A stretch of DNA of 64,000 nt from positions 1-64,000 of IMG/VR virus record IMGVR_UViG_3300044981_000204; one strand, given 5' to 3'. Made by a program: the position numbers and the translations under genes. Origin of the DNA: a virus. The notes beneath the pieces are model-generated. The model was not told the origin of the DNA and did not search any database. It was given only the letters and a program-made list of their open reading frames with translations. Below are positions 12,533 to 43,845 of this stretch, piece after piece; within the stretch, counting starts at the first letter, position 1, and every line of letters starts with the position of its first letter.

Positions 12533-12545
12533 GTGAATCCTTGCT

Positions 12546-12551
12546 ATTATA
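12546..12551 (-). promoter_or_regulatory. -10 element of the reverse-strand membrane gene
   Basis: Consensus TATAAT on the minus strand, 13 bases before the ATG at 12532, leaving a very short leader with AAGGA. Confidence 0.55.
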
Positions 12552-12552
12552 C

Positions 12553-12571
12553 AACACCTTTATGTGGTGTT
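12553..12571. promoter_or_regulatory. Inverted repeat between divergent promoters
   Basis: AACACC and GGTGTT arms around TTTATGT. It lies directly upstream of the minus-strand TATAAT and 15 bases before the plus-strand GGCAACTT. Operator for one or both promoters is possible. Confidence 0.4.
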
Positions 12572-12585
12572 TTCATCTTTGTTTT

Positions 12586-12627
12586 GGCAACTTAGCCAAT
12601 TACCCAAGGATTTCAGCAGTATATAAT
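12586..12627 (+). promoter_or_regulatory. Promoter with upstream GGCAACTT element
   Basis: GGCAACTT at 12586, then consensus TATAAT at 12622, 36 bases apart. Six bases after the -10 box is an in-frame GTG (12634), again the leaderless spacing; an ATG at 12628 touches the -10 box. Confidence 0.6.
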
Positions 12628-12633
12628 ATGTCC

Positions 12634-15600
12634 GTGACCGGACGATCCTGGATCTACCTAATAGTCTCGGTATGGGTGCTAGCTCTTGCGTTGGTTGGTC
12701 AAGAAACCGTCGACTATAGGGGCGCCGAGCGGGTTTTTCCTTATCCCCTAAAAGAGAGGGAGCCAGGAACTTGCACCACGAGTCAATTTTACATAAATTC
12801 TGTCACGGGAAAAATAAGGTATTGTCTTGCTGCTAACCAATGGGTTGATTATCCCTATTTGGTGGGGGCAATGCTTGGAACTGATCAAGCTACCCCGTCT
12901 GTTGCTCCTCCTGCTGGAGAAACTTGGCTATACCCTAAGGGAGGAAAGTGGTGCTCACTTTCTCCTGCGCTTGTTGAGGCGTGCACTGGCGGGAGCGGCG
13001 GTGGGGGTGGTGCCACGATACCCTCAACTACGCACGTTATAGTTGGTGATGGCGGCGGCAATGGCGCAGATTCCAAGGTGGCGCTAACGGCGCCAACTAC
13101 TCTTTGGACCATAACCCCTGTAGCAGATAATCAGTCAACGATAATCCCAGGCGGAACGCTGTTCAACAATTCTCGAGCCATAAACACCTCGGCGCCCCTT
13201 GCTGGGGGTGGTGCTCTATCGTCTGACCTAACACTAACGTGCGGGGTTGCGTCTGGGTCGTCGGCTGGGTGCATCTCTGCTGCCGATTGGACGACGTTCA
13301 ACAACAAGGTTCCTACGTCTACTACTGTGAACGGTCACGCGCTATCGTCCAACGTGACTGTCACGCAGACCGATGTGGGGCTCGCTAGCGTTACAAACGA
13401 CGCGCAGACCAAGGCCTCCGTAATGCCGAACACTGCGCCATTGGCCGGGCAATTTCCGGTCGGTAACGCGGGAGGAACAGCCTATGCTCCCGTCACACTA
13501 TCGCAAGACTGTACCCTTACTAGCGCTGGAGCGATCACGTGCTTGAAAACTAACAATGTTGCGTTTGGTACTGCGGCAACGCAGAACACCGGAACTAGCG
13601 GGGCGACGTTGGGCTTGCTAAACGGCAACCTGACTTTTGGAGGAACGAACGCCTACGGGACTCCGGCGAGTATTACGCTCACGAATGCGACCGGACTTCC
13701 TTTGGGAGGAATGGCGAATCTCGCGGCTAATAGTTTTATCGGCAATAACACTGGGTCTCCAACAACTCCGCTCGCGTTAACGATCGCACAAAGTAAGTCG
13801 CTCTTGGCAATTGCCTGTGGGGACCTGACCAACGCTACGGTTCTCTGTTCAACTGCTCCCGGAACTGGAGTCGCAACGTTTCTGATCACACCGAGTGGCG
13901 CTAATCTCGCATCGGCTCTGACAAGTGCGTTGACGGTTCCGGCAGGCGGTACTGGGGCGGGAACATTTATCGCGAATGCTCCACTGATTGGTAATACGAC
14001 CGGCGCGATCGGGGTCGGCACACGCTCCGGTAACACAACCAGCTTCGCGACGACAAGCGGAACTCTAACGAACGGTCATTGCACTCAGATCGACGCCAGT
14101 GGCAATATCGTGGATTCGGGTTCGTCCAACTGCGGTGGCGGTGGATCGACGGCGTGGTCCGCGATCTCAAACGCGGCTGGCGCGCTGACGCTTGCAAACG
14201 GCACAAACGCGACTACATTCAATCAGACCAATGCCACGGTTTGGACCTGGGCCAACACTACCGCGGCAGTGGTCGGCACCAGTCAGAGTTCTCCAATTGC
14301 GACTTGGTGCGGCACGGCATTTCACGGCAGCGCGAGCGTCCAGGACTGCTTGACGCTTCAGAATCAGCCGGGTAACGGCAACGACGCGGCCATTACGTTC
14401 GCGGTCGGCCACACGGGAACCAGCACCGGCACCGTGACAACGACGTTTCCCGGACCAATAACGGCCACATCGGTGACGAGCAACGGCAGTTCCGCTGGAA
14501 TGTTGTCACTAACCAATAGCGCCACTCCCAGCAGCGTGGTTGCAAACTCCTGGGGCTGGACAGGCAACGCTAGTACAACAACGTCTTGGTATGGACAGAA
14601 TCCAAATGCAAGTCCTGTCGCGAACCAGATCATGCTGTTCCCGGCTCCCACGAGCAGCGTGAGTCAATGGGCATGGACAACGTTCAGCAGTACAAATCTG
14701 ACCGATACGGCAAGCCTAGTCCGCAATAACGCGGCGAACACCTATACAACTGGCGCGCAAGACTTTACCTCTGCTACCAGCATTCTCGTCTCAACGCAAA
14801 CCGCGTCGGACAATTCCACCAAGGCCGCTTCGACGGCATATGTCACGACCGGGATCGCGAATGCTATTGCCGCTGTTGATCCAGCCGTCGCAGTACAAGC
14901 GGCGAGTGCGGCAGTTCTTCCAAATACACCAACTTATAGCAATGGCGTGGCCGGTGTGGGAGCCACGCTCACCTCCGCGACCAATAGCGCCTTGGTTGTG
15001 GACGGCTACACGGTGCTGCTCAACGATCGTGTGCTGGTCAAGAACCAGGCGACGGCGGCGAATAATGGGGTCTACACCCAGACGACACTGGGCGTGGGCG
15101 GATCAGTTGCCTGGGTGCTGACGCGTGCGACTGATTTCAACTCCTCTACCAACATGAACAACACGGGCGCGATCCCGGTCGTGAACGGAACGGCCAACGC
15201 CTCAACCCAGTGGCTTTTGACCTCTAAGGTCACAACGGTAGGCACCGATGCCGTGACGTTCACAGAATTTGCCTTGAATCCGACGACGCTTGTAACAACG
15301 ACTGCAACTCCAAGCGCAGGTGTAGGGCACTTCGCAGGTAGCACGCAGACAATCACGAGTTCGGCGGTCAATCTAGCGGGTGGATCGACCGAAGTTACGG
15401 GTGTACTCCCAACGGCAAATATAGCCGTGGCGCTCGCCAACCAGACCAGCATCAACGGCCTTGGAATCACGGCGAGCACTGGAACGCTCACAATAGCAAA
15501 CGCGAAAACGCTGACAGCGAGCAACACGTTAGAAGTTGCGGGAAGTGCTGCGGATAATGGAGGGGTTGTCTGGTCGAATGCGAGCGGTTATGTAATACTC

Positions 15601-16353
15601 GCTCACACCACGACCGCGAATCTCCCTTTGCTGTCCGGTAACGCCGCAACTCCGGCATGGGCGGCAATTACCTATCCAACGAGTGCGACGAGCGGTGGCG
15701 TCCCGTACTTCTCCTCAACGACTGCAATGGCATCGAGTGCGGCGGGAACGGCCAAGCAATTAATGCTCTGGGGTGGTGCGGGATCTGCTCCGACCGCCAT
15801 CGACTTTCCAGAGCGATACATGATCCCGTTCGCGAATTGCAATAATACGACCGCAGCCGCCGGTGTCTCGATTGGATCTGGAGGAACGGTCACCTGCCGC
15901 GCTGGTACGAATAACCTTGGCGGTTATGTTTCGATCACCGATACTGCCTCAACGTTCGCACAGTTTCAAATCTCGATTCCGACCGACTGGGACACGGCGA
16001 CCAATCCGTACATCTCCTTCGCGTTTATCTCCGTCACCGATACGACCAACGGTCACACGGTCATTCCGCAGATCAAGGTCTCCTGCCCAACAGCGACCAA
16101 CGGGACGGTTACTGACGACCACGCCTTTGCAGCGGCTCACAGCGCAACGACAGTGACCTTCGGGGCGAGCGCGGTGGCAAACGGGTTCTACACCACGTCG
16201 GTCCAGATGAACTCGACAGACATGACCGGCTGCGTGGCCGGTGGAATGATGATTGTGCAGGTTGGGAGGGCTACCGACACGGCGACTGGAACGATCGGAT
16301 TCGAGTATGCTGATGTCACGTTCCCGAGATTGCTAGTGGTGCAGGCAAACTAA
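12634..16353 (+). CDS. Giant tail-fibre-type protein with N-terminal signal peptide
   Basis: About 1,240 aa from the GTG at 12634. The N-terminus (RSWIYLIVSVWVLALALVG, then Q) is a Sec-type signal or membrane anchor. The body is Ser/Thr/Ala/Gly-rich repeats with fibre-type motifs such as TDVGLASVTNDAQTKA and LAANSFIGNNTGSP. Residues about 750-880 form the fibre module with LVVDGYTVLLNDRVLVKNQA and WVLTRATDF. The C-terminal 180 residues look like a jelly-roll receptor-binding domain with paired cysteines. Arginine codons are AGG-type in the first ~80 codons and mostly CGN afterwards, suggesting a chimera. Host-surface binding is the likely role. Confidence 0.7.
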   Translation: MTGRSWIYLIVSVWVLALALVGQETVDYRGAERVFPYPLKEREPGTCTTSQFYINSVTGKIRYCLAANQWVDYPYLVGAMLGTDQATPSVAPPAGETWLYPKGGKWCSLSPALVEACTGGSGGGGGATIPSTTHVIVGDGGGNGADSKVALTAPTTLWTITPVADNQSTIIPGGTLFNNSRAINTSAPLAGGGALSSDLTLTCGVASGSSAGCISAADWTTFNNKVPTSTTVNGHALSSNVTVTQTDVGLASVTNDAQTKASVMPNTAPLAGQFPVGNAGGTAYAPVTLSQDCTLTSAGAITCLKTNNVAFGTAATQNTGTSGATLGLLNGNLTFGGTNAYGTPASITLTNATGLPLGGMANLAANSFIGNNTGSPTTPLALTIAQSKSLLAIACGDLTNATVLCSTAPGTGVATFLITPSGANLASALTSALTVPAGGTGAGTFIANAPLIGNTTGAIGVGTRSGNTTSFATTSGTLTNGHCTQIDASGNIVDSGSSNCGGGGSTAWSAISNAAGALTLANGTNATTFNQTNATVWTWANTTAAVVGTSQSSPIATWCGTAFHGSASVQDCLTLQNQPGNGNDAAITFAVGHTGTSTGTVTTTFPGPITATSVTSNGSSAGMLSLTNSATPSSVVANSWGWTGNASTTTSWYGQNPNASPVANQIMLFPAPTSSVSQWAWTTFSSTNLTDTASLVRNNAANTYTTGAQDFTSATSILVSTQTASDNSTKAASTAYVTTGIANAIAAVDPAVAVQAASAAVLPNTPTYSNGVAGVGATLTSATNSALVVDGYTVLLNDRVLVKNQATAANNGVYTQTTLGVGGSVAWVLTRATDFNSSTNMNNTGAIPVVNGTANASTQWLLTSKVTTVGTDAVTFTEFALNPTTLVTTTATPSAGVGHFAGSTQTITSSAVNLAGGSTEVTGVLPTANIAVALANQTSINGLGITASTGTLTIANAKTLTASNTLEVAGSAADNGGVVWSNASGYVILAHTTTANLPLLSGNAATPAWAAITYPTSATSGGVPYFSSTTAMASSAAGTAKQLMLWGGAGSAPTAIDFPERYMIPFANCNNTTAAAGVSIGSGGTVTCRAGTNNLGGYVSITDTASTFAQFQISIPTDWDTATNPYISFAFISVTDTTNGHTVIPQIKVSCPTATNGTVTDDHAFAAAHSATTVTFGASAVANGFYTTSVQMNSTDMTGCVAGGMMIVQVGRATDTATGTIGFEYADVTFPRLLVVQAN

Positions 16354-17067
16354 ATGAGATATCTATTTTTGGCGCTATTTCTATTGTGCGGAAGCGTATC
16401 ATATTCTCAGTACGTTTCATCTGCTTACAATAGCGGCGCTGGCGCTGGCGGAACCTGGACGCTTACGCAAAATCCTACCGGTGTAGCCTCCTCGGGGGGC
16501 ACCTGCGTGATCTCCACCGGAAGCAATGTCACTTTGGGAAACCTCCTCGTTGCTTCTGGCTTAATTGGAGCATCGGCAACTTTAACAATCGCGGACAACC
16601 ACGGCAACACGTGGACGCAGGTGCAAAAAAACGGTTTTGTGGGCATGTGGTTTCTAATAGCGCCGTCCACACAATCCATGATTGTGACCATCACTTTTAC
16701 CGGTTCTGGGGCCGGTAACGCCTGCGTGCTCCAAGAGTGGAACGGAAATAAGGCGTCTAGCCCTCTTGATACTTCAGGAATCGCGACGGCTTCTGAGGCG
16801 GGAGGGGCCGTGTCGGTCACGACAGCGGGCAACCTCACGGCAAACAGCGACCTCTTACTGGGATGGATCTTTGGAGACAATGGGGGGATTTCTTCAACAT
16901 CCAACGGAGCGGGATTTACCGCCCCCGCTGTGAATCATTTTAACAACTACGGGATGCAGGAATATCAAGTCTTGACTACCGGCTCTGGTGCTACGGCATC
17001 GGCGACTTGGACAACGACTGGCACGGAGTCAAATTACAAAATCGTAGCCGCGTTTCTTCACTCATGA
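16354..17067 (+). CDS. Secreted-type beta-sandwich protein, 237 aa
   Basis: Starts directly after the previous stop. Signal peptide MRYLFLALFLLCGSVSYSQ (SYSQ cleavage context). The mature part has the pattern GNLLVASGL...LTIADNHGNTW...EWNG...SPLD...NSDLLLGW, shared with the protein at 51961-52629, so the two are the same domain family, probably a carbohydrate-binding or adhesin-type beta sandwich. It overlaps the next gene by ATGA. No catalytic motif seen. Confidence 0.6.
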   Translation: MRYLFLALFLLCGSVSYSQYVSSAYNSGAGAGGTWTLTQNPTGVASSGGTCVISTGSNVTLGNLLVASGLIGASATLTIADNHGNTWTQVQKNGFVGMWFLIAPSTQSMIVTITFTGSGAGNACVLQEWNGNKASSPLDTSGIATASEAGGAVSVTTAGNLTANSDLLLGWIFGDNGGISSTSNGAGFTAPAVNHFNNYGMQEYQVLTTGSGATASATWTTTGTESNYKIVAAFLHS

Positions 17068-20012
17068 AAGTCCTCAGCATATTATTCTTCAGCGTGCTAG
17101 CAGGCGCTCAGGGATTCGTAGTAGAGAACTTCTCTGGCGGAGTAAACGGCACGAACCCAACGGCCACGCAAATTGCCAAGGGCTACTTCGGCTCACTAAG
17201 CGGGATTAATGACAATAGTGCGTGTAACTTGGCATCATCCTCTACCAAGTGCCTTGACATCGGGTCCAACAACAACAGTTTCACCGCGATCAGTCTCACA
17301 AACACGTGGCGTTGCTCGGACGGCATTCCCTCCAACAGCGGCGGCTCCTCTGCGCTGTACTTCGACTATGACGGCTCAGTCGGTGGTGGTCATCAGAACA
17401 TTTATATAGGTTTTGAACTTCCCAGTTCGGACAACGGCGGCAGCGCGGTCCAGATGTTAGTCGAGTGGACTTGCATCCCCACGTTGATGACCAACAGCGG
17501 CACAATTGACGATGCGACGATCACCGGTACCGGAACGAGCGCGCTGTCCAACCTAGTGTTCTCTGGCGGCACGGGGCATTATCGGCTGGAAGGAACCTGC
17601 GGGCAAAACGGCTGGCCAGCGGGAGACTGCGACATACCGGCTCCGATCAACACGACCTTTCAGCTCGCCGTCTATCTCCCGATCAAGGGCGCGTGCAGCG
17701 GCACGATCAACACGATTGCGGATGCGGTCGCCGCGAGTTGCATTATCATTGCGACCTACGACAGAACCGGTAGTTTGCTCGGGTTCGCCTACAAGTCCAC
17801 GGGAGGCACCCCTGGAACGGCGTGCAGCGGTACTTGCCAGCCGACCGGCTTCACAATGGGTGATCTCAACGGCGCCATCACGTCAAGCGGGCACATCCAG
17901 CACGCGAACCTGAAGATGTGTCAGGTTGGCTGCACATCCTCTCAATTTCCGTTGCTTGAAACCCCAGTTCCATTATGGGACGGAATTATCACGCCGCCGC
18001 GCGCCACGGACTGGACGCAAGCCGGAATCTCGGGTGGAATCCCGTCTGGCAGTTGGACGCAGTGCGGCAGCACGTTGGCGGCGGGTTCCTATAACGGCTC
18101 GACGATCACTACCACGCTCGCCGGATGTGGAGCGAACACATACTACCTTCTCGGATCAGGTACGTTCAATGTTAGTGGCGCGATTCAACTACCCACTGCC
18201 GGGCATGTGGAGTTGAGAGGATCGGGATCGAACTCGACCTTTCTCGTGATGAGCGGAACCATCGCCACGTGCGGGCAGGTAGCGAGCGCGGTTTGCATGG
18301 TGAGTTCCGATACGACATACTCACAGACGCCTCCGGCCAATACGTTTACGTGGACAGCGGGGTTCGCACAATCCAGCACTTCAGTGACGCTCTCTACCTT
18401 AGCTGGATCTGGTCCGACGGCGATCAGCACGACAAACCCCACGCTAATCTGGTTCGACCAGTGCGACACGGGTTATAGCGGCGTAGCGTGTGCTACGGGA
18501 AATGCCACCGATAATTCGCAGATGTACGTCTGCGGCGACACCTATAACGCCACTGGTCCGCATGGCTGCTCAGCGAACGGCGGCGGAAGCGGGGCGCGTC
18601 CGCATCGTGACCAGCTTGAGGTTCACATCGCAACTGCCGTCAACACGGGAACAGGTGTTGTAACGCTGGCCACGCCGATCATTGGACCAAACTGGGTGTC
18701 GGGGCAGAACCCGCAGGCGTGGCTGGTCAATCCAGCGACCCAACTCGGAGTGAGCAATCTGTCCATCGACCCGAGTGGAGCGACGAGCGGAGGTACAGGC
18801 AAGGCGTGCGTAGACGGATTCAACCTTTACCAATTCTGGGTCTCGCAGGTCCGGTGCATCAATCCTAACAACCGTGGTATCAACATCGCCGAGTCGGCCT
18901 CTGGGATCGTTGTCAGCAATTACGTTTATGGCACAACAGGGACGCAGCCGTCAATCTACGGAATCCGCATGAACGGGGTTGGACTAGTTCGTGTCGAGAA
19001 CAACATCCTGCAACAGTCAGGCCCGATCTTTCACGACGGCGCAGCTTCTGGTAACGTAATCGCCTACAATTTTTGCCAGAACGGTTCTTCGTTCATCGAC
19101 CCGAGCAATGCGCTTACCGCGTGCATCACGGACCACGCCTACGACTATTTCAATCTGTTTGAGGGAAATGTAGTCAATCAAGTCGGCAGTGACGATATCC
19201 ATGCATCAGCCGACATGGAGACGCGCTTTCGGAACTTCCTAACTGGCTGGGATTCAGTTCCAAGTGCCCCGATCACCAGCTTTACTAACTCCGTTGGAGA
19301 CTTTGCCTATGCCCGCTACGCGAACAACATTGCGAGCGTTATGGGCACCCCGACTTACCACACTGGCTATTCAGCAGCCTCAAACGCCCTGGACATCTAT
19401 TGGGAAGGCGGTGGCCCCGGTAGCGTTCCGACCGATAGCCTGACAAAATCCACATCAATCTTCTGGGGAAGCTACGACACAGTTACCGCGGCAGTTCGAT
19501 ATTGCGGAAATTCTACCGACACTGGATGGAGCACGACCTGTTCGAGCACAGCGGAGAGCGCATTCTCAGCGAGCACCTACCCCGGATTCGTCCCGGTCCT
19601 CGGTGACACCTCAGCGGGCCAAGACGCACTCCCGGCATCCCTTTATCTCAGCACCAAGCCCTCCTGGTGGTTTCCCCTTACGATCCCATTCCCAGCGGTC
19701 GGGCCCGACATCAGTAGCGGCAACGTTGGAGTGTGTTCGGGAACCATTAACACGGTGGGGCACTATTCGGGAGTTCCAGCTACGGCCAACGGTCAATGCA
19801 CTGGGACTTCCTTGATGGCGAGCGCTTGGGGTGGACACGTAAACGCGATCCCGGCGATGAACTGCTACCTCAACACGATGTCGGGTCCGCCAGATGGAAG
19901 CGGGAGTGCCCTTAGCTTCGACGCGGGCATCTGCTACGCCGGCACCAATGCAGCAGGCGGCAGCACCGCGGGCGGCTCCGTCACAATCAGCGGCAGCGCT
20001 CAGGTACACTAA
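17064..20012 (+). CDS. Secreted-type right-handed beta-helix protein
   Basis: ATG at 17064 overlaps the previous stop; the longer frame from 17007 is not needed. About 982 aa with signal peptide MKVLSILFFSVLAGAQG. The N-terminal ~300 residues look like a lectin or jelly-roll domain. From about residue 390 comes a parallel beta-helix of the pectate-lyase type (HVELRGSGSNSTFLVMSG, then NIAESASGIVVSNYVYG and LVRVENNILQQSGPIF). Such helices in phages often bind or cleave polysaccharide. No AGG arginine codon appears among the roughly sixteen I read. Enzyme activity is unproven. Confidence 0.65.
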   Translation: MKVLSILFFSVLAGAQGFVVENFSGGVNGTNPTATQIAKGYFGSLSGINDNSACNLASSSTKCLDIGSNNNSFTAISLTNTWRCSDGIPSNSGGSSALYFDYDGSVGGGHQNIYIGFELPSSDNGGSAVQMLVEWTCIPTLMTNSGTIDDATITGTGTSALSNLVFSGGTGHYRLEGTCGQNGWPAGDCDIPAPINTTFQLAVYLPIKGACSGTINTIADAVAASCIIIATYDRTGSLLGFAYKSTGGTPGTACSGTCQPTGFTMGDLNGAITSSGHIQHANLKMCQVGCTSSQFPLLETPVPLWDGIITPPRATDWTQAGISGGIPSGSWTQCGSTLAAGSYNGSTITTTLAGCGANTYYLLGSGTFNVSGAIQLPTAGHVELRGSGSNSTFLVMSGTIATCGQVASAVCMVSSDTTYSQTPPANTFTWTAGFAQSSTSVTLSTLAGSGPTAISTTNPTLIWFDQCDTGYSGVACATGNATDNSQMYVCGDTYNATGPHGCSANGGGSGARPHRDQLEVHIATAVNTGTGVVTLATPIIGPNWVSGQNPQAWLVNPATQLGVSNLSIDPSGATSGGTGKACVDGFNLYQFWVSQVRCINPNNRGINIAESASGIVVSNYVYGTTGTQPSIYGIRMNGVGLVRVENNILQQSGPIFHDGAASGNVIAYNFCQNGSSFIDPSNALTACITDHAYDYFNLFEGNVVNQVGSDDIHASADMETRFRNFLTGWDSVPSAPITSFTNSVGDFAYARYANNIASVMGTPTYHTGYSAASNALDIYWEGGGPGSVPTDSLTKSTSIFWGSYDTVTAAVRYCGNSTDTGWSTTCSSTAESAFSASTYPGFVPVLGDTSAGQDALPASLYLSTKPSWWFPLTIPFPAVGPDISSGNVGVCSGTINTVGHYSGVPATANGQCTGTSLMASAWGGHVNAIPAMNCYLNTMSGPPDGSGSALSFDAGICYAGTNAAGGSTAGGSVTISGSAQVH

Positions 20013-20859: not shown

Positions 20860-20982
20860 ATGATCGAGGTTGGTCCCACCACTCAGATGATGATGGAGGG
20901 CGGACTTTTTTCGTCCGTTCTTTGGAAGGCTTCACCTGCGTCCATGGTTGTGCTTCTCTTTAGTGGAAAAAGCAATTCATGA
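20860..20982 (+). pseudogene. Truncated first copy of the large terminase N-terminus
   Basis: ATG behind TAGGAGAGC. It encodes MIEVGPTTQMMMEGGLFSSV and LWKASPASMVV, then departs into LLFSGKSNS and stops. It matches the start of the second copy at 21655 residue for residue over about 30 codons, while most synonymous positions differ. Its codons are phage-like (GAG, CCC, TCG, TCC), so this looks like the original terminase start, cut off by the homing endonuclease insertion. Its stop overlaps the endonuclease start (ATGA). Confidence 0.8.
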
Positions 20983-21662
20983 AAAAGTTTTTTTGTCGAA
21001 GTGATGTTTTTCAAGTGCTTACTCCTGAAGCTTGTTATTGGGCGGGAGTGTTGGCTTCAGATGGCTGTATTCGTATTAAGGGAAAAAACTCGCGAATAGT
21101 TGTATTGAAGGTCGATGATCGATCTTTGGTTGATTCATTCAAAAGTTTTCTTCAGTCTGAAGCAACAATCTTTTCGGGGGAAAGGTTTAATGGGAAGCAT
21201 TGGTACTTACTTCAAGTTTCTGATAGTCAGATTTTCTTTGACTTATGTACTCAGGGAATTGTCCCTAATAAGTCGTTGACTTTGAAAGTTTCTCAAAGAT
21301 TGGCCATGGACCGTGATTTTTGGCGAGGTGTCATGGATGGGGATGGTTGTCTTTGCATCAAGTCGAGTGGATACTTCTCCTTGCTGCTTTGCTCTGCTTC
21401 ATGGGATTTTATCCTTCAATTTAGTGATTTTCTTGGTAGTTTGGGAATTGTTCGTAAAATTACAGTTGATAGCCGTAAGCGTTCACCATTGTACAGTATT
21501 CAACTTTCTGGTTGGCAAGCTAGAACACTTGTTAAGGAGCTATACCGCGATTGTTGTATGGCTTTGGATAGGAAGTTGAGTATAGCTGAAGCAGTGATGG
21601 ATGCAAAAGGTGTACGGATGGTCGGCGTAACCGCTAAGGAGGAACTTGGGCATCATGATTGA
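20979..21662 (+). CDS. LAGLIDADG homing endonuclease inserted in the terminase gene
   Basis: A 227-aa two-motif LAGLIDADG endonuclease: YWAGVLASDGCIR (about residues 19-31) and FWRGVMDGDGCLC (about residues 110-122), each providing the acidic catalytic residue at its end. The AT-rich codon use is unlike the surrounding genes, indicating recent arrival. The ATG overlaps the stop of the truncated terminase copy, and the 3' end overlaps the second terminase start by 8 bases. Its last codons include AAGGAGGAACT, which serves as the ribosome binding site of that copy. No intron core or intein domain is seen around it. Confidence 0.85.
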   Translation: MKKFFCRSDVFQVLTPEACYWAGVLASDGCIRIKGKNSRIVVLKVDDRSLVDSFKSFLQSEATIFSGERFNGKHWYLLQVSDSQIFFDLCTQGIVPNKSLTLKVSQRLAMDRDFWRGVMDGDGCLCIKSSGYFSLLLCSASWDFILQFSDFLGSLGIVRKITVDSRKRSPLYSIQLSGWQARTLVKELYRDCCMALDRKLSIAEAVMDAKGVRMVGVTAKEELGHHD

Positions 21663-34287: not shown

Positions 34288-34830
34288 GTGGAACCCTACA
34301 AGTACACAACTACCCGAAAGGTCGAGTCTGAGGCATTTCCAGGCGTGTCGTACGTCCTTCGGAAGATGACCGAGGGTCGGCGCATGGAGCTCAGGAAGAC
34401 CATGGGTGAGGCCAATAGGCGTATTCGTGAGATCATGCGCGAGCAGGCGGTCATCGAGAAGCAGCCCGAGGAGTCCAAGGACCTGGTGAAGTGGCTGGAG
34501 CTGCAGGACGAGTTCGACATGATCCGCCTGGAGGTCGTCAACCCCGCGTGGATCCAGTGGGGGGTCAAGCAGATCGAGGGACTTGAAGCTGATGGTGTGG
34601 TCCTGGGGGTTGAAGACTGGAGCTCGTGGCCGTCCGCCCTGGTAGAGGAGGTCGCGAGCGCAGTGCAGGCCGAGTCTGATTTGTCGGGCCAGGAAAAAAA
34701 ACCATTAAGCTCTCCTATCACTTCTGGCGGACAGGAGCCTCCGAAAGCCCACTTTTCGACTGCGTCGAGTGCAAGCGAAGAGGGTATTACAGAGATCGAA
34801 ACTGCTCCTGGTATTTCCCAGATCGTGTAG
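34288..34830 (+). CDS. Tail assembly chaperone G
   Basis: 180-aa frame of the frameshifting chaperone pair: a charged helical N-terminal domain (RKMTEGRRMELRKTMGEANR) and a C-terminal Ser/Pro/Glu-rich tail. The sequence GAA AAA AAA CCA at 34693 marks the frameshift site. Chaperones of this type hold the tape measure during tube polymerisation. Confidence 0.8.
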   Translation: MEPYKYTTTRKVESEAFPGVSYVLRKMTEGRRMELRKTMGEANRRIREIMREQAVIEKQPEESKDLVKWLELQDEFDMIRLEVVNPAWIQWGVKQIEGLEADGVVLGVEDWSSWPSALVEEVASAVQAESDLSGQEKKPLSSPITSGGQEPPKAHFSTASSASEEGITEIETAPGISQIV

Positions 34831-35159
34831 ACCCAAACAGAAATATCTGTTGGGAAGCTTCCTATAGGAGCAGCAATGGAAATCAGTTCGTAATCTTCGA
34901 CAGTGCGACTAACGACTGTCCTCAAATCGTATCAGCTCCGTTCACAGAGTTGATACAATTGTTCGCCCGGTCTAAGCTGATGAAAGAGGCCGTTGGCGCA
35001 GCCCCATACGGCGGGGATCTTAATAAATGGCCGTCACGCCTAGTGGACGCGTTCATCATCCTTCAAGGTGAGGCGCAGAGGGTTGACCACATGATGGTTG
35101 CTCCTCAAGCGACTCAGCAGCAAAATCCCAGACAACCTATTCCTATGAGACGAAGATAG
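34288..35159 (+). CDS. Tail assembly chaperone GT, by -1 frameshift
   Basis: From 34288 to about 34701, then -1 and on to 35159. After the slip the reading continues ACC ATT AAG CTC TCC and stays open for 153 codons up to the TAG. The extension contains CVECKRRGYYRDRNC, a Cys-x2-Cys/Cys cluster, and ends with a proline- and arginine-rich tail (PRQPIPMRRR). It lies just before the tape measure, the conserved siphovirus position. Total about 290 aa. Confidence 0.85.
34693..34702 (+). other. Slippery sequence for -1 ribosomal frameshift
   Basis: GAAAAAAAAC (eight A). In the zero frame it reads GAA AAA AAA C, allowing an A-AAA-AAA slip. It lies at the point where the -1 frame becomes open to 35159. 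Confidence 0.8.
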
Positions 35160-35196: not shown

Positions 35197-38100
35197 ATGC
35201 CTCTTAATGATTCTTTTTTAGGACAAATTACTGATGCTTTAGTGAATAGGGTTGCGGAACCAAATAAGCTTGAAGATGTTACTGTAAAGATCCGTGAGGT
35301 CGTCTCCAGCCTCCAGCGTTCGGCTACCGTCTTTGACAAGTTCAGCGCTCAGATCTCAAAGGACTTCTCATCGGCAGTAAAAGCAGCTCAACGCGCCCCG
35401 GGGGCCAAGCCCCTCGACTCCCGCGAGATCCACGACGCCTTTAAGAAGTTGGTCGTACCCCTGCGGGACGAGGTCCAACTACTTTCGAGGATGACCAGGG
35501 CCCAGGTGACCCCCGCCACCAACACTAAGCAGAGGGAGTTCGAGCGGTCCGTGAGGGACTCGTTCGTGAGACTGCAAGCAAGGCTTGAGTCGAGGGAGTC
35601 ACGTACCGCCTCTAGGGCCTCCCTTCCAGAGGACGTCAAGTCGATACAGTCGCAGCTCAGGAGGTCCTGGCAAGAACTGCAGAAGTCGACGACCGACCTA
35701 AGTCGCACCACTAAGAAGTCCGCTATTGGTATCGCGGCAGTGGTCGACACCGAGACCACCTATAGGAAGTCCCAGGCGAGGTTGACCAGTTCCATGAAGC
35801 ACCTTGAGAACCAGGTCCTTCAGGTCGGAGTGCAGCTGTTGTCATACAGCAAGAGGACTGGCCAGATCCTCAACGAGAACGTCGCCTCATACCACGGCAT
35901 GCACGAGCTGAACAAGAAGCTCTTGCGTGACTCAGATGTCCTGTACAGTAAGCAGGTTGCAGCGGCGGCAGTCGGGCAGAGGATAGACTGGGGCAAGGTA
36001 AGGGCACTCCTCAACGTGGCGGACTTTGCCGTGGCGCACAACGCGGCATTCGACAAGTCCTTTACCCAGGCAAGGGTTGCTTCCGCAGGGAACATGCCGT
36101 GGTTGGACTCAATGCGGGGTGTGCCCTGGCGTGAGATTGGTCACGCAGGTAGGGCGCTGCAGTCCCTCCTCCCCGCGTATGGTATACGCCCCGGACAAGC
36201 TCACACTGCGTCTGCCGACGTCCAGTCCCTCGTCTCCCTGCTCAAGGCCCGTACCGAGGGAGTGCCGCACATGGCGATGCTCCTCGGGTCGCAGGGACCA
36301 CTGAACCAGTCCCAGCGCCTCCTGTCTGTGGTCGGGGAGCAGGTCAAGTCCCTCCGCGCTGACATCGAGACCAGGCTCGGTAGGGAGAGGTCGCAGTATG
36401 TGCGCAACGCCCAGGGGGACCTCGAGGTTAGGCCAACTGCCAGGGCCCAGTACAGGACCCCCTCCCGGGTGATCGGCGCTGGAAACATATCTTCTCAGAT
36501 CATTGAAGCCATAGAGGGTGGCATAGAGGCAAGGGCGAGGAGGCCTGCTCGCTCCACAGACTACGGAACCAAGTTCGGTTCGGGCGAGGCGCCGGAGTCA
36601 ACTCCCGGGCTGGTTGGTACCGCCGCCATCGGCCTAGACCGGCACATCGGGACTATCAACACCTTCCTGCGCAACATGGCCATTTTGTCCGGCCCAGCCG
36701 CATCTGAGAAGCTCCTGTCGGTCATCACAGAGCAGCAGAGCTTCCAGGAGGGCGTGCAGGCCCACAGGGGCAGGGGCCTACAGACCAAGGCCAACATCCG
36801 CACCGCAGAGGGCCTCCAGCTCGCGATGATGTCGGGCGTGAACACGCGCCTTGAGAACGAGCGACTCGGCGTCCCGAAGAACTTCCAGGACCCGTTCGAG
36901 CAGTCGGACAGGAGGATGGCGCTGCGCAGGGAGCAGTTTGCGGCTCAGCTGGCCTCACAGCCGTGGGCAAGGCCCACCAGGGCTTTCGGCGAGGGCGAGG
37001 TCGCCGAGTTCGTTGGCAGGTTCGGCGGAACAACCCCCTGGCCCCCTGGCACAGGCCACCGGGGCATCATCAGCAGCGCAGCGCAGATGGCAACCTCCGT
37101 GGGCCCTGGGCACCCCCACTTCGACGCCTTGACCGGTATCATCACGAGGGGGCAGATGCGCGGGCGTGCGGCCAACTTCGCCCAGGCCGAGGCCGAAAAG
37201 CAAAGGGCGGTGGAGCTATTGGCCGGGGGCGTACCTCCCGCGGGCGGGTCCAGGTTCGGGAGGTTCGCCAAGGAGCTGTTGAGCGGTGAGGAGGGGTCGA
37301 TCAACCTTACTCGCATTGGTGAGCTCCTTGGTAGGTTCAAGAGGCAGAGGGGGCAGGCCGCGCGAGCTGAGTCGGCCATGGGCTATGGTGATCGAGCCAG
37401 GGGCGATATCCCCTACCCCACGGACCTGCGGGCGCAGCTGCGCCGCGACGTCCTCGACTCCAAGCTCAAGAAGCTGGCCGACGGCGCCGAGGGTGCTGCC
37501 AAGGCACTCAAGCAGTTCGAGGCGGCGGCGGGTGGCAAGGCCAAGGAGGCGATCGGCAGGGGGGCGCTGAGGGACCAAGGCATATCCAGCGCGCTGACGG
37601 ATAAGCAGGCCTCCTTGGACGCTAAGGTCGCCGCCATCTCTGAGCGGAGGGCCAGGTCCCAAGCGGCCTCCATGAGGCGCGAGAACGACGTCAGGGAGGC
37701 GTCCACAGCCAAGTACACCAACCTGGCCAAGGCCGAGCTGAGGGCGTCAGAGTCGTACGATGCTGCGCTGGCCAGGCAGGACAGACTGAGGGCCCGACTT
37801 GGTTCCTCCAAAGCCTACCAGAACATTACTCCAGAAGAGAAGAACAGGATGCTGGAGTCGGTGGTCAGGCCGTCGCTGATGAGGCTGACGAGGGCCAGGT
37901 ATGAGGCAACGGCCTCAGAAGTCACCGATCCTGAGCAGCTGGCGAAGTTGAGGTCGTCCGTGGCGGCTAGGGCCGCCATACAGAGGTTTGGGTCGGGGTC
38001 GGGCGAGGCAACCTACCAGGGGCGGGTGAGGCCCCTTGAGGAGCTCCGCAAGGAGTACAGGGACCGGGTCGCCCAGTCCCTCGGCGGCAGGACGGTCGCC

Positions 38101-41100
38101 CAGGCGGAGGCCGAGAAGGTTGGCAGGATCAGGGAGGAACAGGCCCTCAAGCAAAAGGCCTACGATGAGCAGGAGGTCGGCGTTGCGCAGAAGAGGGCCT
38201 CGGCGGAGGAGGGGGCATCCAGGAAGAGGTCCGAGAACGCCCAGAAGGTGAATGCAACCGTTGGCCGGCTCGAGGAGCAGGTAAACCAGCGCAGGGAGAA
38301 ATCTCAGAAGAAGCAAGTCGATGCTGAGGAGAAGATCCACCAGCTGAAGGTGGCGCACCTGAAGAGGGAGGATATCGCTTCTGGAGGAGGCGGGGGAGGG
38401 GGTGCTGGTGGGGCTGGGGGAAGGGGCCAGTTCGCGAGCCGCACAGGGATGGGGATGGGGCTCGGGTTTGCTGCATTTGCTGGGGCGTCGAAGGGCTTGT
38501 GGGACCTGGTGAAGGCCGCGACTGAATATTCCGCTAGGACTGAGGTGATGGCCTTTACGACCGCCAACATGGCGAAGGTTAACAAGCTAAACGTCGACGA
38601 GGTGAATGCAGAAGTTGAGGCAATCAAGAACCTCAACCTGACCACGCAGGCTGCACACACCACTGTCCAGAAGATGATGTTTGCGCAGTTGGACCTTGCC
38701 AAGGCCTCTAAGTTGGCGAGGGTCGCGCAGGACGTCGCGGTCATGGGAGGCATCGACCCGTCCGAGGCGCTGGAGAAGTTGATACGCGGTGTCACGACGG
38801 GGTACACCATACAGCTGCACAGGATGGGTTTGCTGATTAGCCAGATCCAAACCATCAGGGAACTCAAGATAGAGAAGCGGGCTAAGGGAGAAGCGGGTGA
38901 GCCGACCGAAGTTGAGAAGCGCCAAGCCCTGATGAACAAGGTGCTCATCGAGGGCGCTAAACTAACTGGGGCGTATGAGAAGTCGATGCTGTTGGTTGGC
39001 GGCAGGTTTGCGTACCTCTCGAAGGAAGTCCAAGAGGCCAAGAACGCGCTCGGTTCTGCATTCTTGCCGACGTTCAACAAGTTCGTCACCATGGTCACCG
39101 GGGGTGCTAGGTTCGTGCAGCAGCACGGTGACGCGGTCGCGGCGCTGACTAAGCAGCTGATGTCCCTTGGGGCTGCCGCAGGGACCATCGGCACCCTGGC
39201 CTTCTTCAGGTGGCTGATGATGTCCGGCAGCGTGCCGATATGGGCCAAGGTCGCTGGCGGGGTGGTGTACGCGCTGACCAACATCGGGTTGAGCGCCAAC
39301 GCGTCGTCCGAGGCGATGAAGAACGCCAAGGATCAGATGGATGCCCTCGAGAAGAAGATCAAGGAGCTGAGGGAGGAGCGCAAGGCCTTGTTCAAGGCCC
39401 CCGAAAAGGGAAGTGAGTGGCAGTCGCAGGTCGATGCCAACTATCAGGCGTTGAAGTCGGCGTCGGAGATGGAGGTCGACATAGTCAAGGACACCACCCG
39501 GAAATTGGCCGCGGAGTGGCAGAAGCAGGTCAATGACAAGAAGAATGCTGTCTCCGCTTTGGCGAACGAGGACCTCTTTAGGCAAGGTTTCGGGCTTCCC
39601 CCCTCTCAGAAACCGATCAAGGACGTGCGTAAGCAGATTGAGGCCATGGATGATGACTACTTCACAGTTAGGGGCATGTCGAAGAAGGACGTCTTGGCCG
39701 AGTTCGACCGCCAGCAGCGGGAGAAGGAGCGCCTGAAGCAGCCAGGGGCTGCTCAGATAGTTAACAAGGAGAATGAAAAGGCTGACAGAATTAAGTCGGA
39801 CCTACTCGAGCTCGAGACAGAATTAACGAAGCTCGACTTGGCGCAGTCGGAGCGCGGTCGAGCTGGCCTTAAGGCTCGCAAGGCCTTCGGCACCCCCAGG
39901 GAGAAGATACAGCTCGATTATGAGTTCGAGATTGCGAAGATAAAGGACCGAGACAAGGAGATCAGGAAACTCCAAGAGGACGCAGCTAAGGGGGACGTTA
40001 GTGCGCAGGCCGTGCTTGAGCGCGTTTATTCTGGCACCCCCGGGGGAAAGGAGGGGGTTGAAGCGTCGCTTGCTAAGCAGGGGATTGCCGTAGATGAGGC
40101 GGCCAAGAACAGGGACATCGAGCTTGGGAAGCTTACAGCTCAGACCAACGCGCACATCAAACAGATCCAGTCGCAGACGGCCATCGAGAGGATCCTTGGA
40201 CAGGTGGTGCAGGGGAACTACACCTCGGAGCAGAATGCTGTTGAGCAGGTCTTCAACGCCCGCAAGAAGTTGCTTGACTCTATCAAGGAAACGATCGGGG
40301 TCGACGAGTACAGGAAGCAGTTGGAGGAGGCGGAAGCTGAGCGTGCCAAGTCCTTGTTGGATGTTGAGAAGAGGCGTCGGGATGCGAACAGGGAAAGGAC
40401 CCTGGACGAGGCGAAGTATCCAGCGGATCGTGGGGCGCAGGACATCATGGAGGGGCCGAGGTCGGCCGAGGTAGCTACACACCTTGCATTCGACCTGAAG
40501 CGACAAGCAGCTGCGCTCGACCTGGACGAGGAGCGCAGGATAGATAGGATCATCGAGCTGAACCGCGAGGAGGACGAGGCAATCAAGCAGCTGGGGCGCG
40601 ACAAGGCAAAGATGAATGCCGAGTCGAGGATCGATGAGTTCAAGAACCTGCAGCAACTGCAGTCAGAAGTGGACCGCATCGTGTATGGTCGAGGGAAGGG
40701 CTCGGACACCCAGGAGGCGATGGCCGAGATTGAGAGGAACAGGCTCAGGGCTTGGGCTGCTGCTTCCTTTGAGTTCACCCAAAGGATGGGTTTGCCACAC
40801 ACAGCTATACAAGGAGCTGATTTAGCGGAGTCGAGGGTTGCAGCTGAGCGTGCGGCAGATGTTCAAGCGACAGTGGACACCGTCAAGCGCCTCGAGCAGC
40901 ACGAGGAGTCCTCCCGCTCCAAGCTCCAGGACACCTACCAGCGACAGCTGCAGCAGGCGTCGCGCGTAGGTGAGCTGCAGGCGGTGAACATTGCCGACCA
41001 AGACGCGGCCGCCCACCGCGCCTACCTGATGCGGCTGGAGTTCATCAAGAAGGAGTTCGAGGCCAGCAAGCAAGCTGTCGAGGACGTCCACAAGCGCGAC

Positions 41101-42579
41101 CTCGAGCTCCAGCAGGCGGAGTTCGACGAGTGGCAGCGGCTGCAGGAGCAGAAGAAGCAGAAGCTGGAGGAGCTGCGCGGGTTCTCGGGCAACATCTTCG
41201 ACATCGTCACCTCGAGGACCCCTGACAGGGCGCGGCAGGCCAGGGACTATGCCATCGGGCTGGGCAAGGGCGTGGGGCGGACGGTGTTCCAGAACCTTTC
41301 TGTTGAGACGTTTAAGAACGTGGGCGGTATGCTGGGGAACGTGATACCCCAAGGCACGCAAGGTCACCCGAACTTCATCGCTAAGCTACTCGGCGGTACT
41401 CCGTTCGCTAAGCAGTACGACCCACAAGCTCAGCTGGCGAAGGCCACGATAGATAGTACTTCTGCTGAACAGGACCTGACGAAGGCCATTCAGAGCTTGG
41501 ATGAGGCGGTGAGGAGCGTGGGTGGGCTTCCTGGAGGAGTCCCAGGATCGGGATCGACCGGTTCGGGCCTATCGTTCGTTCCCGGCGTTGGGACGTTCAT
41601 GAACGCAATCAGCGCTGGAGGAGGTGTGCCGGCCATGTCTGCAGTTCCGGGGTTGGGATCCTTTATGTCTGTCGCATCTACAGCGGGTTCCTTGGCCAGG
41701 GTACTGCAGGGTTCTGGCGGTAGTGGGTCGACTTCCGGCTTATCGCTTGTTCCAGGAATCGGCACATTGATGGACTTAGCTAGCTCAGGGACTAGCTCTG
41801 GAGGGGGAGCTCCGGCTGATGCAATAGTTTCTTCCGGCATATTGGGGAATAAGGGTGGTGGAATGGGTAAGGTCGCCGGCATAGGGATGGCGGCAGGCGG
41901 GGCCTACCAGGCGATCACCGGATTTAAGAAGGGTGGGGTTGGGGGCATATCTAGCGGCATAGGAGGAGTACTATCTTCGGCGGCAGGAATAACGGCCATG
42001 ATACCCGGGGCCCAGATAGCTGCGCCATTCCTCATGGCGGGATCCATGATAGCGGACTTCATAGGGTCCATGTTCGGCAACTCAAGGGAGCAAAGGGCCA
42101 TCGACATACAGAAATACTCCGACCAGAGCAAGTACATCGCCCCCGTGCAGATAAATAGGGAGATGAGCGCCAGCGGCGACTTGCTCAGCTACAACAAGTA
42201 CGGGATGGCCCGCGACTCGGGCATAGGGGCGTTCCCGATACCGATCTCTCCTACGCAGTACGGCAGGACGCCGTCTAAGACGTGGGCGAACCCGAACATT
42301 CCAGAGTACTACACGATCCCGGGTCAGGTTGTTCCTCCCTCCTCGTCGGCACCCGGCGGGGTGGGGTCCTCCTACATCTCCCCCGGGCAGGTGCCGTCGA
42401 CCGTAACGGCGCCAAGTGGTGGAGGGGGCCACACCACCATCATAAACATCCCGGTCCACGCCATCGACGCAAAAGACATCATGTCTCGGTCCGCCGTCTT
42501 TGCTCAGGCCATAAACAAGGAGCTCAAGAGTGGATCAGATCTTGCCATAGGAATTACCCAGGCGGTATTCGGGGCATAG
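35197..42579 (+). CDS. Tape measure protein with an embedded DnaQ-like 3'-5' exonuclease domain
   Basis: 2,460 aa. The ends and middle are classic tape measure: long charged coiled coils (about 1,400-1,990), hydrophobic membrane-like stretches near 1,320-1,365 and 2,220-2,295, and three 'VPGxGxFM/LM' repeats near 2,122-2,200. Unusual is residues about 178-345: AAVVDTETTYR (Asp184, Glu186), AHNAAFD (Asp286) and HTASAD (His336, Asp341) give the complete DEDDh set of DnaQ/RNase T exonucleases, with VGVQLLSY and the internal helix in the right order. It would act on single-stranded DNA or RNA. The first ~90 bases of the gene are AT-rich, unlike what follows. There is no ribosome binding site; TATAAC lies 12 bases upstream of the ATG. 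Confidence 0.85.
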   Translation: MPLNDSFLGQITDALVNRVAEPNKLEDVTVKIREVVSSLQRSATVFDKFSAQISKDFSSAVKAAQRAPGAKPLDSREIHDAFKKLVVPLRDEVQLLSRMTRAQVTPATNTKQREFERSVRDSFVRLQARLESRESRTASRASLPEDVKSIQSQLRRSWQELQKSTTDLSRTTKKSAIGIAAVVDTETTYRKSQARLTSSMKHLENQVLQVGVQLLSYSKRTGQILNENVASYHGMHELNKKLLRDSDVLYSKQVAAAAVGQRIDWGKVRALLNVADFAVAHNAAFDKSFTQARVASAGNMPWLDSMRGVPWREIGHAGRALQSLLPAYGIRPGQAHTASADVQSLVSLLKARTEGVPHMAMLLGSQGPLNQSQRLLSVVGEQVKSLRADIETRLGRERSQYVRNAQGDLEVRPTARAQYRTPSRVIGAGNISSQIIEAIEGGIEARARRPARSTDYGTKFGSGEAPESTPGLVGTAAIGLDRHIGTINTFLRNMAILSGPAASEKLLSVITEQQSFQEGVQAHRGRGLQTKANIRTAEGLQLAMMSGVNTRLENERLGVPKNFQDPFEQSDRRMALRREQFAAQLASQPWARPTRAFGEGEVAEFVGRFGGTTPWPPGTGHRGIISSAAQMATSVGPGHPHFDALTGIITRGQMRGRAANFAQAEAEKQRAVELLAGGVPPAGGSRFGRFAKELLSGEEGSINLTRIGELLGRFKRQRGQAARAESAMGYGDRARGDIPYPTDLRAQLRRDVLDSKLKKLADGAEGAAKALKQFEAAAGGKAKEAIGRGALRDQGISSALTDKQASLDAKVAAISERRARSQAASMRRENDVREASTAKYTNLAKAELRASESYDAALARQDRLRARLGSSKAYQNITPEEKNRMLESVVRPSLMRLTRARYEATASEVTDPEQLAKLRSSVAARAAIQRFGSGSGEATYQGRVRPLEELRKEYRDRVAQSLGGRTVAQAEAEKVGRIREEQALKQKAYDEQEVGVAQKRASAEEGASRKRSENAQKVNATVGRLEEQVNQRREKSQKKQVDAEEKIHQLKVAHLKREDIASGGGGGGGAGGAGGRGQFASRTGMGMGLGFAAFAGASKGLWDLVKAATEYSARTEVMAFTTANMAKVNKLNVDEVNAEVEAIKNLNLTTQAAHTTVQKMMFAQLDLAKASKLARVAQDVAVMGGIDPSEALEKLIRGVTTGYTIQLHRMGLLISQIQTIRELKIEKRAKGEAGEPTEVEKRQALMNKVLIEGAKLTGAYEKSMLLVGGRFAYLSKEVQEAKNALGSAFLPTFNKFVTMVTGGARFVQQHGDAVAALTKQLMSLGAAAGTIGTLAFFRWLMMSGSVPIWAKVAGGVVYALTNIGLSANASSEAMKNAKDQMDALEKKIKELREERKALFKAPEKGSEWQSQVDANYQALKSASEMEVDIVKDTTRKLAAEWQKQVNDKKNAVSALANEDLFRQGFGLPPSQKPIKDVRKQIEAMDDDYFTVRGMSKKDVLAEFDRQQREKERLKQPGAAQIVNKENEKADRIKSDLLELETELTKLDLAQSERGRAGLKARKAFGTPREKIQLDYEFEIAKIKDRDKEIRKLQEDAAKGDVSAQAVLERVYSGTPGGKEGVEASLAKQGIAVDEAAKNRDIELGKLTAQTNAHIKQIQSQTAIERILGQVVQGNYTSEQNAVEQVFNARKKLLDSIKETIGVDEYRKQLEEAEAERAKSLLDVEKRRRDANRERTLDEAKYPADRGAQDIMEGPRSAEVATHLAFDLKRQAAALDLDEERRIDRIIELNREEDEAIKQLGRDKAKMNAESRIDEFKNLQQLQSEVDRIVYGRGKGSDTQEAMAEIERNRLRAWAAASFEFTQRMGLPHTAIQGADLAESRVAAERAADVQATVDTVKRLEQHEESSRSKLQDTYQRQLQQASRVGELQAVNIADQDAAAHRAYLMRLEFIKKEFEASKQAVEDVHKRDLELQQAEFDEWQRLQEQKKQKLEELRGFSGNIFDIVTSRTPDRARQARDYAIGLGKGVGRTVFQNLSVETFKNVGGMLGNVIPQGTQGHPNFIAKLLGGTPFAKQYDPQAQLAKATIDSTSAEQDLTKAIQSLDEAVRSVGGLPGGVPGSGSTGSGLSFVPGVGTFMNAISAGGGVPAMSAVPGLGSFMSVASTAGSLARVLQGSGGSGSTSGLSLVPGIGTLMDLASSGTSSGGGAPADAIVSSGILGNKGGGMGKVAGIGMAAGGAYQAITGFKKGGVGGISSGIGGVLSSAAGITAMIPGAQIAAPFLMAGSMIADFIGSMFGNSREQRAIDIQKYSDQSKYIAPVQINREMSASGDLLSYNKYGMARDSGIGAFPIPISPTQYGRTPSKTWANPNIPEYYTIPGQVVPPSSSAPGGVGSSYISPGQVPSTVTAPSGGGGHTTIINIPVHAIDAKDIMSRSAVFAQAINKELKSGSDLAIGITQAVFGA

Positions 42580-42580
42580 C

Positions 42581-42985
42581 ATGCCAACCTTTCCAACCCT
42601 ATCTTCCGGATCCATGGTCGTGGCACCATCCCTGTCCGGCCAAGCGATCGCCATGTACCCCGCGACCCTTAGGAGCTCGTTCGTCACGAGGGTAATCAAG
42701 TTCGTCAACGACACGGAGCAGCGGTGGGTTGTGAGGGGTAGGTTGTTCTCGGCCGTGTTACAGTTACACGACCTCAATGGGTACGACACAAGCCTATTGG
42801 TGAACTTCTTCAACACGATGAGGGGTGAGTATGTCGATGCGGCGCTGACCAATGTTTTCGACATCACCATCGACGGCGTTCAGTACTTCTGGTGCGTCTT
42901 CGACCAAGACGTTTTGCAGGTGCAGGAGGAGCCAGGCCTCAAGTATTCTTTCCAAATGGCGATCAGGCAATTGAGGCCCAACTAG
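42581..42985 (+). CDS. Minor tail protein, 134 aa
   Basis: Starts two bases after the tape measure stop. Beta-rich with aromatic residues (YPATLRSSFVTRVIKFVNDT, then VQYFWCVFDQDVLQVQEEPG). Gene order after the tape measure suggests a distal tail component. Exact family uncertain. Confidence 0.6.
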   Translation: MPTFPTLSSGSMVVAPSLSGQAIAMYPATLRSSFVTRVIKFVNDTEQRWVVRGRLFSAVLQLHDLNGYDTSLLVNFFNTMRGEYVDAALTNVFDITIDGVQYFWCVFDQDVLQVQEEPGLKYSFQMAIRQLRPN

Positions 42986-42987
42986 TC

Positions 42988-43845
42988 ATGCCAACATATT
43001 TTCCTCAAATAAACAGCAATCTTATAATGACCCAGCTCCCGTACTCGACTGATCAGGGGTTTGGCACGATAGTCCAGGACGTGGAGAGTGGTCCGAGGTT
43101 CACGTACCCCATGAGGGGTGCTGGCCACTCCGGGTTTCCCACGGGGCCGCTTGGCAGGTTCAACTTGAATTTTCCGAACATAACGGACGCTGAGGTATCG
43201 ACGCTTAAGGCGTTCCACGCCTCCATGAGTGGGCGGTGGGGGGCGTTCAGGTTCCTTGACCCGGGAGGCAACTTGCTGCAGTACAGCGAGGACTTCACAC
43301 AGACATATTGGGACAAATCCAACGGGCCAGTAACCGTTGGCGGCTTGGTTGCTGATCCGCTTGGCGGAGGACAGTGCTACTCACTAACGTCTGGAGCTAG
43401 CATATCAGCTGTGCTTGGGCAAGTTGGGCCTGCCGACGGTGGGATGTCCGGGTTCATCATGTGCGTTTCGGCCTGGATACAGGTTCAGGACCCAAATCAG
43501 CTCATATTCATTGGCTTCGCGAATTCGTCGTTCGTGCTGAGGGGGGAGTACTACCGACCTACCCAGGGGGTTTGGGTGAGGATCAAGCACACGGAGGTTT
43601 TGTGGGACAACAACGCGTTCAGGGCTATCATAGGAGGGGCGCAGTCAACGTTCCAGGGAGGTAGGCAGATGTATGTCTTCGGCGCCCAGGTGGTTCCAAT
43701 GAAGGGGGAAGGAGCAAGGGTGGCGGCGCCTAGTCGCTGGGGTTATCACGCCAATTGTCGATTTGACGTGGACATGTTCGAGAGACAGGTTGGGGGACCA
43801 AATCAGAACACTCTGTCGCTTCCGGTAGTGGAGTTCAATGTTTAG
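42988..43845 (+). CDS. Tail tip protein, DUF2460-like, 285 aa
   Basis: ATG at 42988; the longer frame from 42892 lies in the previous gene. The segment HASMSGRWGAFRFLDPGGNL resembles the 'G.w.afRF.D' motif of DUF2460-type tail proteins. The C-terminal half is a beta-sandwich-like domain (FIMCVSAWIQVQDPNQLIFI), perhaps carbohydrate-binding. Lies between the tape measure and the tail hub. Confidence 0.6.
   Translation: MPTYFPQINSNLIMTQLPYSTDQGFGTIVQDVESGPRFTYPMRGAGHSGFPTGPLGRFNLNFPNITDAEVSTLKAFHASMSGRWGAFRFLDPGGNLLQYSEDFTQTYWDKSNGPVTVGGLVADPLGGGQCYSLTSGASISAVLGQVGPADGGMSGFIMCVSAWIQVQDPNQLIFIGFANSSFVLRGEYYRPTQGVWVRIKHTEVLWDNNAFRAIIGGAQSTFQGGRQMYVFGAQVVPMKGEGARVAAPSRWGYHANCRFDVDMFERQVGGPNQNTLSLPVVEFNV

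Follow-up and report, generated by a model that had tools for sequence, protein, structure and literature searches.

Where siphophage tails have been solved, as for JBD30, the tube is filled by a trimer of the tape measure protein (TMP) that reaches into the baseplate with its C-terminal end (PMC11445458). In the model proposed for infection, this C-terminal domain comes out first and the remainder is expelled to form a DNA channel, deep within which the TMP is believed to hold the end of the DNA (PMC11445458). Enzyme domains are present in some TMPs, such as the metallopeptidase of T5 pb2 and the transglycosylases of enterococcal TMPs, which cut peptidoglycan (PMC10038345; PMC10194240). As far as the literature found here extends, the known TMP enzyme domains act on the cell wall. 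The locus described here likewise places an enzyme domain in a TMP, but this domain has a nuclease fold. The DNA analyzed (the window) comprises the first 64,000 nucleotides of the IMG/VR virus record IMGVR_UViG_3300044981_000204, which contains 120,021 bases in all. The TMP gene (35197..42579) is a single open frame of 2,460 codons without internal stops, encoding a 2460-aa protein whose N-terminal extension carries the exonuclease; this gene, its parts, and the adjoining tail genes are all on the + strand.

A DEDDh exonuclease domain in the tape measure frame

The sequence-only reading had identified a DEDDh (DnaQ-like) exonuclease inside the TMP from the motifs VVDTETT, AHNAAFD, and HTASAD. 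All three are present in order in the uninterrupted frame, and their coordinates were exact. The ExoI motif VVDTETT provides D184 and E186 (35746..35754), the ExoII motif AHNAAFD (36034..36054) provides H281, N282, and the catalytic D286, and the ExoIII-epsilon motif HTASAD (36202..36219) provides H336 and D341, giving a complete and ordered DEDDh signature with DxE in ExoI, D in ExoII, and HxxxxD in ExoIII. Position 35746 is the first base of the D184 codon and position 36219 the last base of the D341 codon; the homologous domain is broader than this earlier-noted D184–D341 span and extends over approximately residues 171–355 (35707..36261).

Comparison with the PHROGs resulted in a match of the window TMP domain to phrog_192, annotated as "DNA polymerase exonuclease subunit" (E 5.2e-9), and the homologous TMPs of two related phages described below match the same family over the full domain (E 1.3e-15 and 1.4e-18). 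The Pfam RNase_T model did not match the window copy and reached E 0.025 in the TMP of one relative. With tblastn, the domain matched proteins annotated as epsilon-like exonucleases in Rhizobium phages (E 2e-12) and in a Pseudoalteromonas phage (E 2e-6). In an alignment of 46 homologues, the only invariant columns were D184, E186, T188, H281, D286, H336, and D341 (TMP numbering), five of which are the predicted catalytic DEDDh residues and two their neighbors in the motifs. A profile made from this alignment matched PolC, DinG, ExoX, DnaQ/epsilon, RNase T, TREX, and other proteins in the PDB. The AlphaFold2 model of the domain, for which the input alignment contained the homologues as is usual for the method, has a pLDDT of 89.7 and a pTM of 0.88. 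Its best Foldseek matches are the DinG exonuclease, DnaQ, E. coli epsilon, RNase T, and TREX1/2, and each of the top 41 matches is a DEDD-type exonuclease or a protein with such a domain. The predicted structure is therefore DnaQ-like with an RNase H-like fold. With profile, tblastn, fold, and conserved active site in agreement, residues ~171–355 are confirmed as a DEDDh 3'-5' exonuclease domain for which activity is predicted, and the earlier identification was correct. Of the three TMP copies, that of the window diverges most: motif I is followed by an insertion of approximately 10 residues, and motif III has HT instead of HR.

Related phages and the architecture of the tape measure protein

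A search with the terminase identified five related contigs (66–69% identity), two of which (66% identity) are long, namely IMGVR_UViG_3300048819_000142 (116.8 kb) and IMGVR_UViG_3300036828_000755 (131.8 kb). The terminase succeeded where the whole TMP and the capsid protein, used as single queries against the viral contigs, did not find these relatives. Both long relatives, which come from other samples, encode homologous TMPs in uninterrupted open frames of 2,707 and 2,503 aa that are 32–38% identical to the window TMP. The exonuclease domain is in the same place in both, is 42–47% identical to the window copy, and has canonical motifs (DTESTGL/DTETTGL, AHNAPHD/AHNAPFD, and HRATDD/HRTQGD). 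Among the three TMPs, 54 of the 185 domain positions (29%) are invariant, and the five catalytic positions, which the survey of related TMPs could have found to vary, are all constant (hypergeometric P 0.002 for this occurring by chance, treating positions as equivalent). Maximum-likelihood analysis placed the TMP domains of all three phages in a single clade (100/99), with stand-alone exonucleases of viruses and bacteria around it. The same fusion in two relatives and the single clade rule out both chance and misassembly.

The known members of the fusion are these three only. The TMP without its exonuclease, searched with tblastn against 50,697 phage records, gave nothing at E up to 10. None of the exonuclease homologues in the same records (E up to 1) carries a tail protein annotation; they are labeled as exonucleases, polymerases, or hypothetical proteins. 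All 52 matches of the exonuclease profile in viral contigs are stand-alone ORFs of fewer than 400 aa. No TMP-like protein was apparent among 26 bacterial-genome matches of the exonuclease; three of these are in frames of ~920–1035 aa that are likely DnaQ-DinG type helicases. A second phrog_192 member was not found in the three records, which may be incomplete, nor was an RNase_T member found elsewhere in the record of the window phage.

The TMP consists of an N-terminal segment (residues 1–170), the exonuclease (171–355), a conserved stretch (431–535), a charged segment (~760–1060) that is probably a coiled coil, a Gly-rich linker, and the core. The conserved stretch (36487..36801) is the most conserved part of the protein, with 55% of its positions invariant among the three TMPs (RRPARSTDYG..GSG..PE.TPGL); it had no Pfam match, and a search of the viral contigs with it gave the same two relatives only. 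A structure model of residues 1–760 predicted from the three sequences had a mean pLDDT of 40 and was discarded. The linker ASGGGGGGGAGGAGGRG (residues ~1061–1077; 38377..38427) is present in all three fused TMPs and leads from the N-terminal extension to the TMP core. The core and C-terminal part (residues 1079–2460; 38431..42576) were aligned to L080 and L081 and are also matched by L112 and L114–L118.

These eight TMP-like proteins, retrieved with the TMP and with its conserved core as queries, are free of the exonuclease domain. The core match begins 80–170 residues into their open frames and at approximately residue 1,110 in the window TMP, which places the exonuclease in an N-terminal extension of ~1,060 aa. 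Contig ends interrupt several of the eight, always downstream of the core; truncation therefore does not account for the missing extension. Four of the six domain-free proteins that were tested match PHROGs for tail length tape measure proteins, L080 weakly. The window protein has no direct PHROG tape measure match; its homology to tape measures runs through L080 and L114, both of which match its core around residues 1109–1390, and phrog_3779 matches the shared core on L114 (E 3e-13). The earlier description of the exonuclease as embedded in the tape measure therefore has to be refined, as the domain is in an extension that precedes the core and is absent from eight related TMPs. Judged from these alignments, the protein is a normal TMP joined via a Gly-rich linker to an exonuclease-bearing extension, with a natural fusion site just ahead of the linker.

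The genomic context is that of a siphophage tape measure. Genes for terminase, portal, scaffold, and capsid proteins are upstream, and the gene directly upstream of the TMP, as in both relatives, encodes a G-like tail assembly chaperone (180-aa ORF; 34288..34830). This gene contains the slippery sequence GGAAAAAAAACC near 34693, and from there the -1 frame runs on for ~150 codons to a stop just before the TMP, giving a putative GT-like frameshift product (34691..35159). The same overlap is present in both relatives with the slippery sequence AAGAAAAAAC, and a conserved programmed -1 frameshift of the G/GT type is likely from these features. The TMP is followed by a distal-tail-like protein (42892..43845; phrog_1302 distal tail protein, E 3e-4) and thus occupies the usual position between the frameshift chaperone pair and the distal tail gene. 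Elsewhere, two phrog_4645 endonuclease-like genes, one just upstream of the terminase (window 20979–21662) and one beside the DNA polymerase (L006:11643-12485), are possibly homing endonucleases, and two very long ORFs of 1270 and 1001 aa within 12541–20012 of the window had no PHROG match.

The extension of the TMP of IMGVR_UViG_3300048819_000142 contains a further domain, similar to DUF4406 and nucleoside deoxyribosyltransferases (L076:2533-2838, open-frame residues 597–698; PF14359, E 2.4e-15; phrog_355, E 5.7e-21). This insertion follows the conserved stretch and precedes the coiled-coil part, and it is absent from the other two fused TMPs. Nucleoside monophosphates, the products of 3'-5' exonucleases, would be plausible substrates for such a domain. 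A second enzyme-like domain in the same extension suggests that the extension is a carrier region for enzymes. Among the exonuclease-free TMPs, L114 (L114:9500-16444; 2315 aa) has a lytic domain in the middle of the protein (phrog_873 endolysin, E 6e-29; phrog_7182 tail injection transglycosylase, E 1e-16), indicating that this TMP superfamily takes up varied enzyme domains.

Proposed delivery by the tail and alternative roles of the domain

As solved tails have the C-terminal end of the TMP at their tip, the exonuclease would by analogy be head-proximal, come out last, and adjoin the DNA end. The sequence-only reading had the domain leaving through the tip ahead of the DNA, which is only half right: by this analogy it would be at the head end of the TMP and would leave the tail last. 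The explanation we favor, and to which we lend slightly more belief than doubt, is that an exonuclease predicted to be catalytically intact from its unchanged active site is fused to the head-proximal end of the TMP as an enzyme of early infection delivered by the virion. The computed results behind it are the DnaQ-like fold, an active site that is conserved, three genomes with the fusion, the single clade, and related TMPs that do not have the extension. An ancestor of this lineage would have acquired the exonuclease once, from a stand-alone phage exonuclease, and the acquired domain would have become fused within the ~1,060-aa extension to the head-proximal TMP end. Each virion would then carry a few copies, presumably three per tail as in the solved cases. 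As the tail opens, the TMP would be expelled C-terminus first, and the exonuclease end would be driven into the periplasm or cytoplasm, either together with the first DNA end or immediately before it. In the cell, the enzyme would remove 3'-terminal nucleotides from single-stranded nucleic acid, most likely host nucleic acid or a defense based on nucleic acid. That the catalytic site is kept in three distantly related phages suggests a nuclease delivered into the cell with the DNA. Against this delivery model, a tail lumen of about 4 nm (PMC9022992) leaves little room for three folded domains of 185 aa, and the density inside the tail tube measures ~2 nm (PMC11445458). The narrow space is a serious problem for every model that keeps the domains folded in the tube. 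The domain may therefore be unfolded, staggered, or located in the neck or head.

Action on host nucleic acid or defense is preferred, and the main rival, likewise argued by analogy with solved tails, is action on the DNA end of the phage itself. The exonuclease might bind or trim the 3' end of the packaged genome, and its role would be to tether the DNA to the tape measure or to ready the end for entry. DEDDh enzymes bind the 3' ends of single-stranded DNA, and RNase T–ssDNA structures are among the Foldseek matches. The N-terminal location would by analogy put such a domain beside the genome end (PMC11445458). An active exonuclease near the genome would be a threat unless held off, however, and the DUF4406 domain of one relative would go unexplained; we consider this role unlikely but worth keeping in view. 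Function in the producing cell, either before assembly or after proteolytic release, is to us quite unlikely. The enzyme would then serve replication, recombination, or RNA turnover, and the fusion would be an expression arrangement, in keeping with the stand-alone nature of the nearest homologues (one beside replication and recombination genes), the lack of any other phrog_192 member in the three genomes or RNase_T member in the window phage, and the cleavage that the T5 TMP undergoes (PMC10038345). Yet the domain is kept in frame with a late structural protein, the tape measure, and the phage polymerase apparently has exonuclease motifs of its own.

An improbable alternative is that the fold survives as a non-catalytic spacer or neck plug. 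TMPs are structural proteins and the window copy is divergent, but the five catalytic residues are invariant in the 46 homologues and in three TMPs whose domains are only 29% invariant. The probability of a misassembly or a chance motif match, which a single uncultured record might raise, is negligible, as it is refuted by two independent records from other samples with such divergent TMPs and by significant profile and fold matches. A proofreading partner for the polymerase was also considered. The DNA polymerase A of the phage can be aligned with 7pbk over almost its entire length, and inspection by eye suggests the motifs LDCET, NLLYDEE, and YAEGDVD; the Pfam exonuclease model did not match it. 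As the polymerase thus seems to keep its own DEDD exonuclease motifs, proofreading by the TMP domain has no obvious need and is a less likely role, weakening this candidate.

A broader version of the delivery explanation, which we put forward tentatively and are inclined to doubt, is that the head-proximal end of the TMP could be a cargo bay that delivers nucleotide-acting enzymes ahead of the DNA, directed against host nucleic acids, nucleotides, or defense signals. This reading would cover the exonuclease in all three TMPs and the DUF4406 domain, a putative deoxynucleotide N-glycosidase, in one. A nuclease conserved at the head end would imply that the tail ruler is able to transport enzymes active in the cell or on the genome end, and delivery in this manner would be a route separate from that of head-borne ejection proteins. 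The fate of the N-terminal end of the TMP during infection also becomes testable.

Comparison with known systems

No earlier description of a nuclease in a tape measure was found in the open-access literature; the component families are known, and the combination, its N-terminal location, and its conservation appear to be new. The stand-alone phage DnaQ-like exonucleases, such as that of Rhizobium phage RHph_TM61 (QIG77821.1; phrog_192), have the same domain and motifs, including WxxSxxxxxW between ExoII and ExoIII. Those examined are single proteins of ~180–390 aa, however, rather than part of a 2,460-aa tail protein, and the RHph_TM61 gene is near genes for a 5'-3' exonuclease and a recombination endonuclease. 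The exonucleases of DnaQ/PolC and DinG, RNase T, and TREX1/2 share the DEDDh fold and active site with the TMP domain, at ~10–20% identity over the Foldseek matches, but are cellular proteins and not parts of a virion. Injected polyvalent proteins and internal head proteins travel from the head as separate proteins, whereas the carrier here would be the tape measure. Delivery of enzymes with the DNA is nevertheless the common idea (PMC7824862), and the proposed function would group the TMP exonuclease with these proteins, with the tail ruler as its carrier. Whereas the T5 TMP has its enzyme domain close to the C-terminus, toward the tip (PMC10038345), the exonuclease is in the N-terminal part of the protein, which by analogy would be on the head side.
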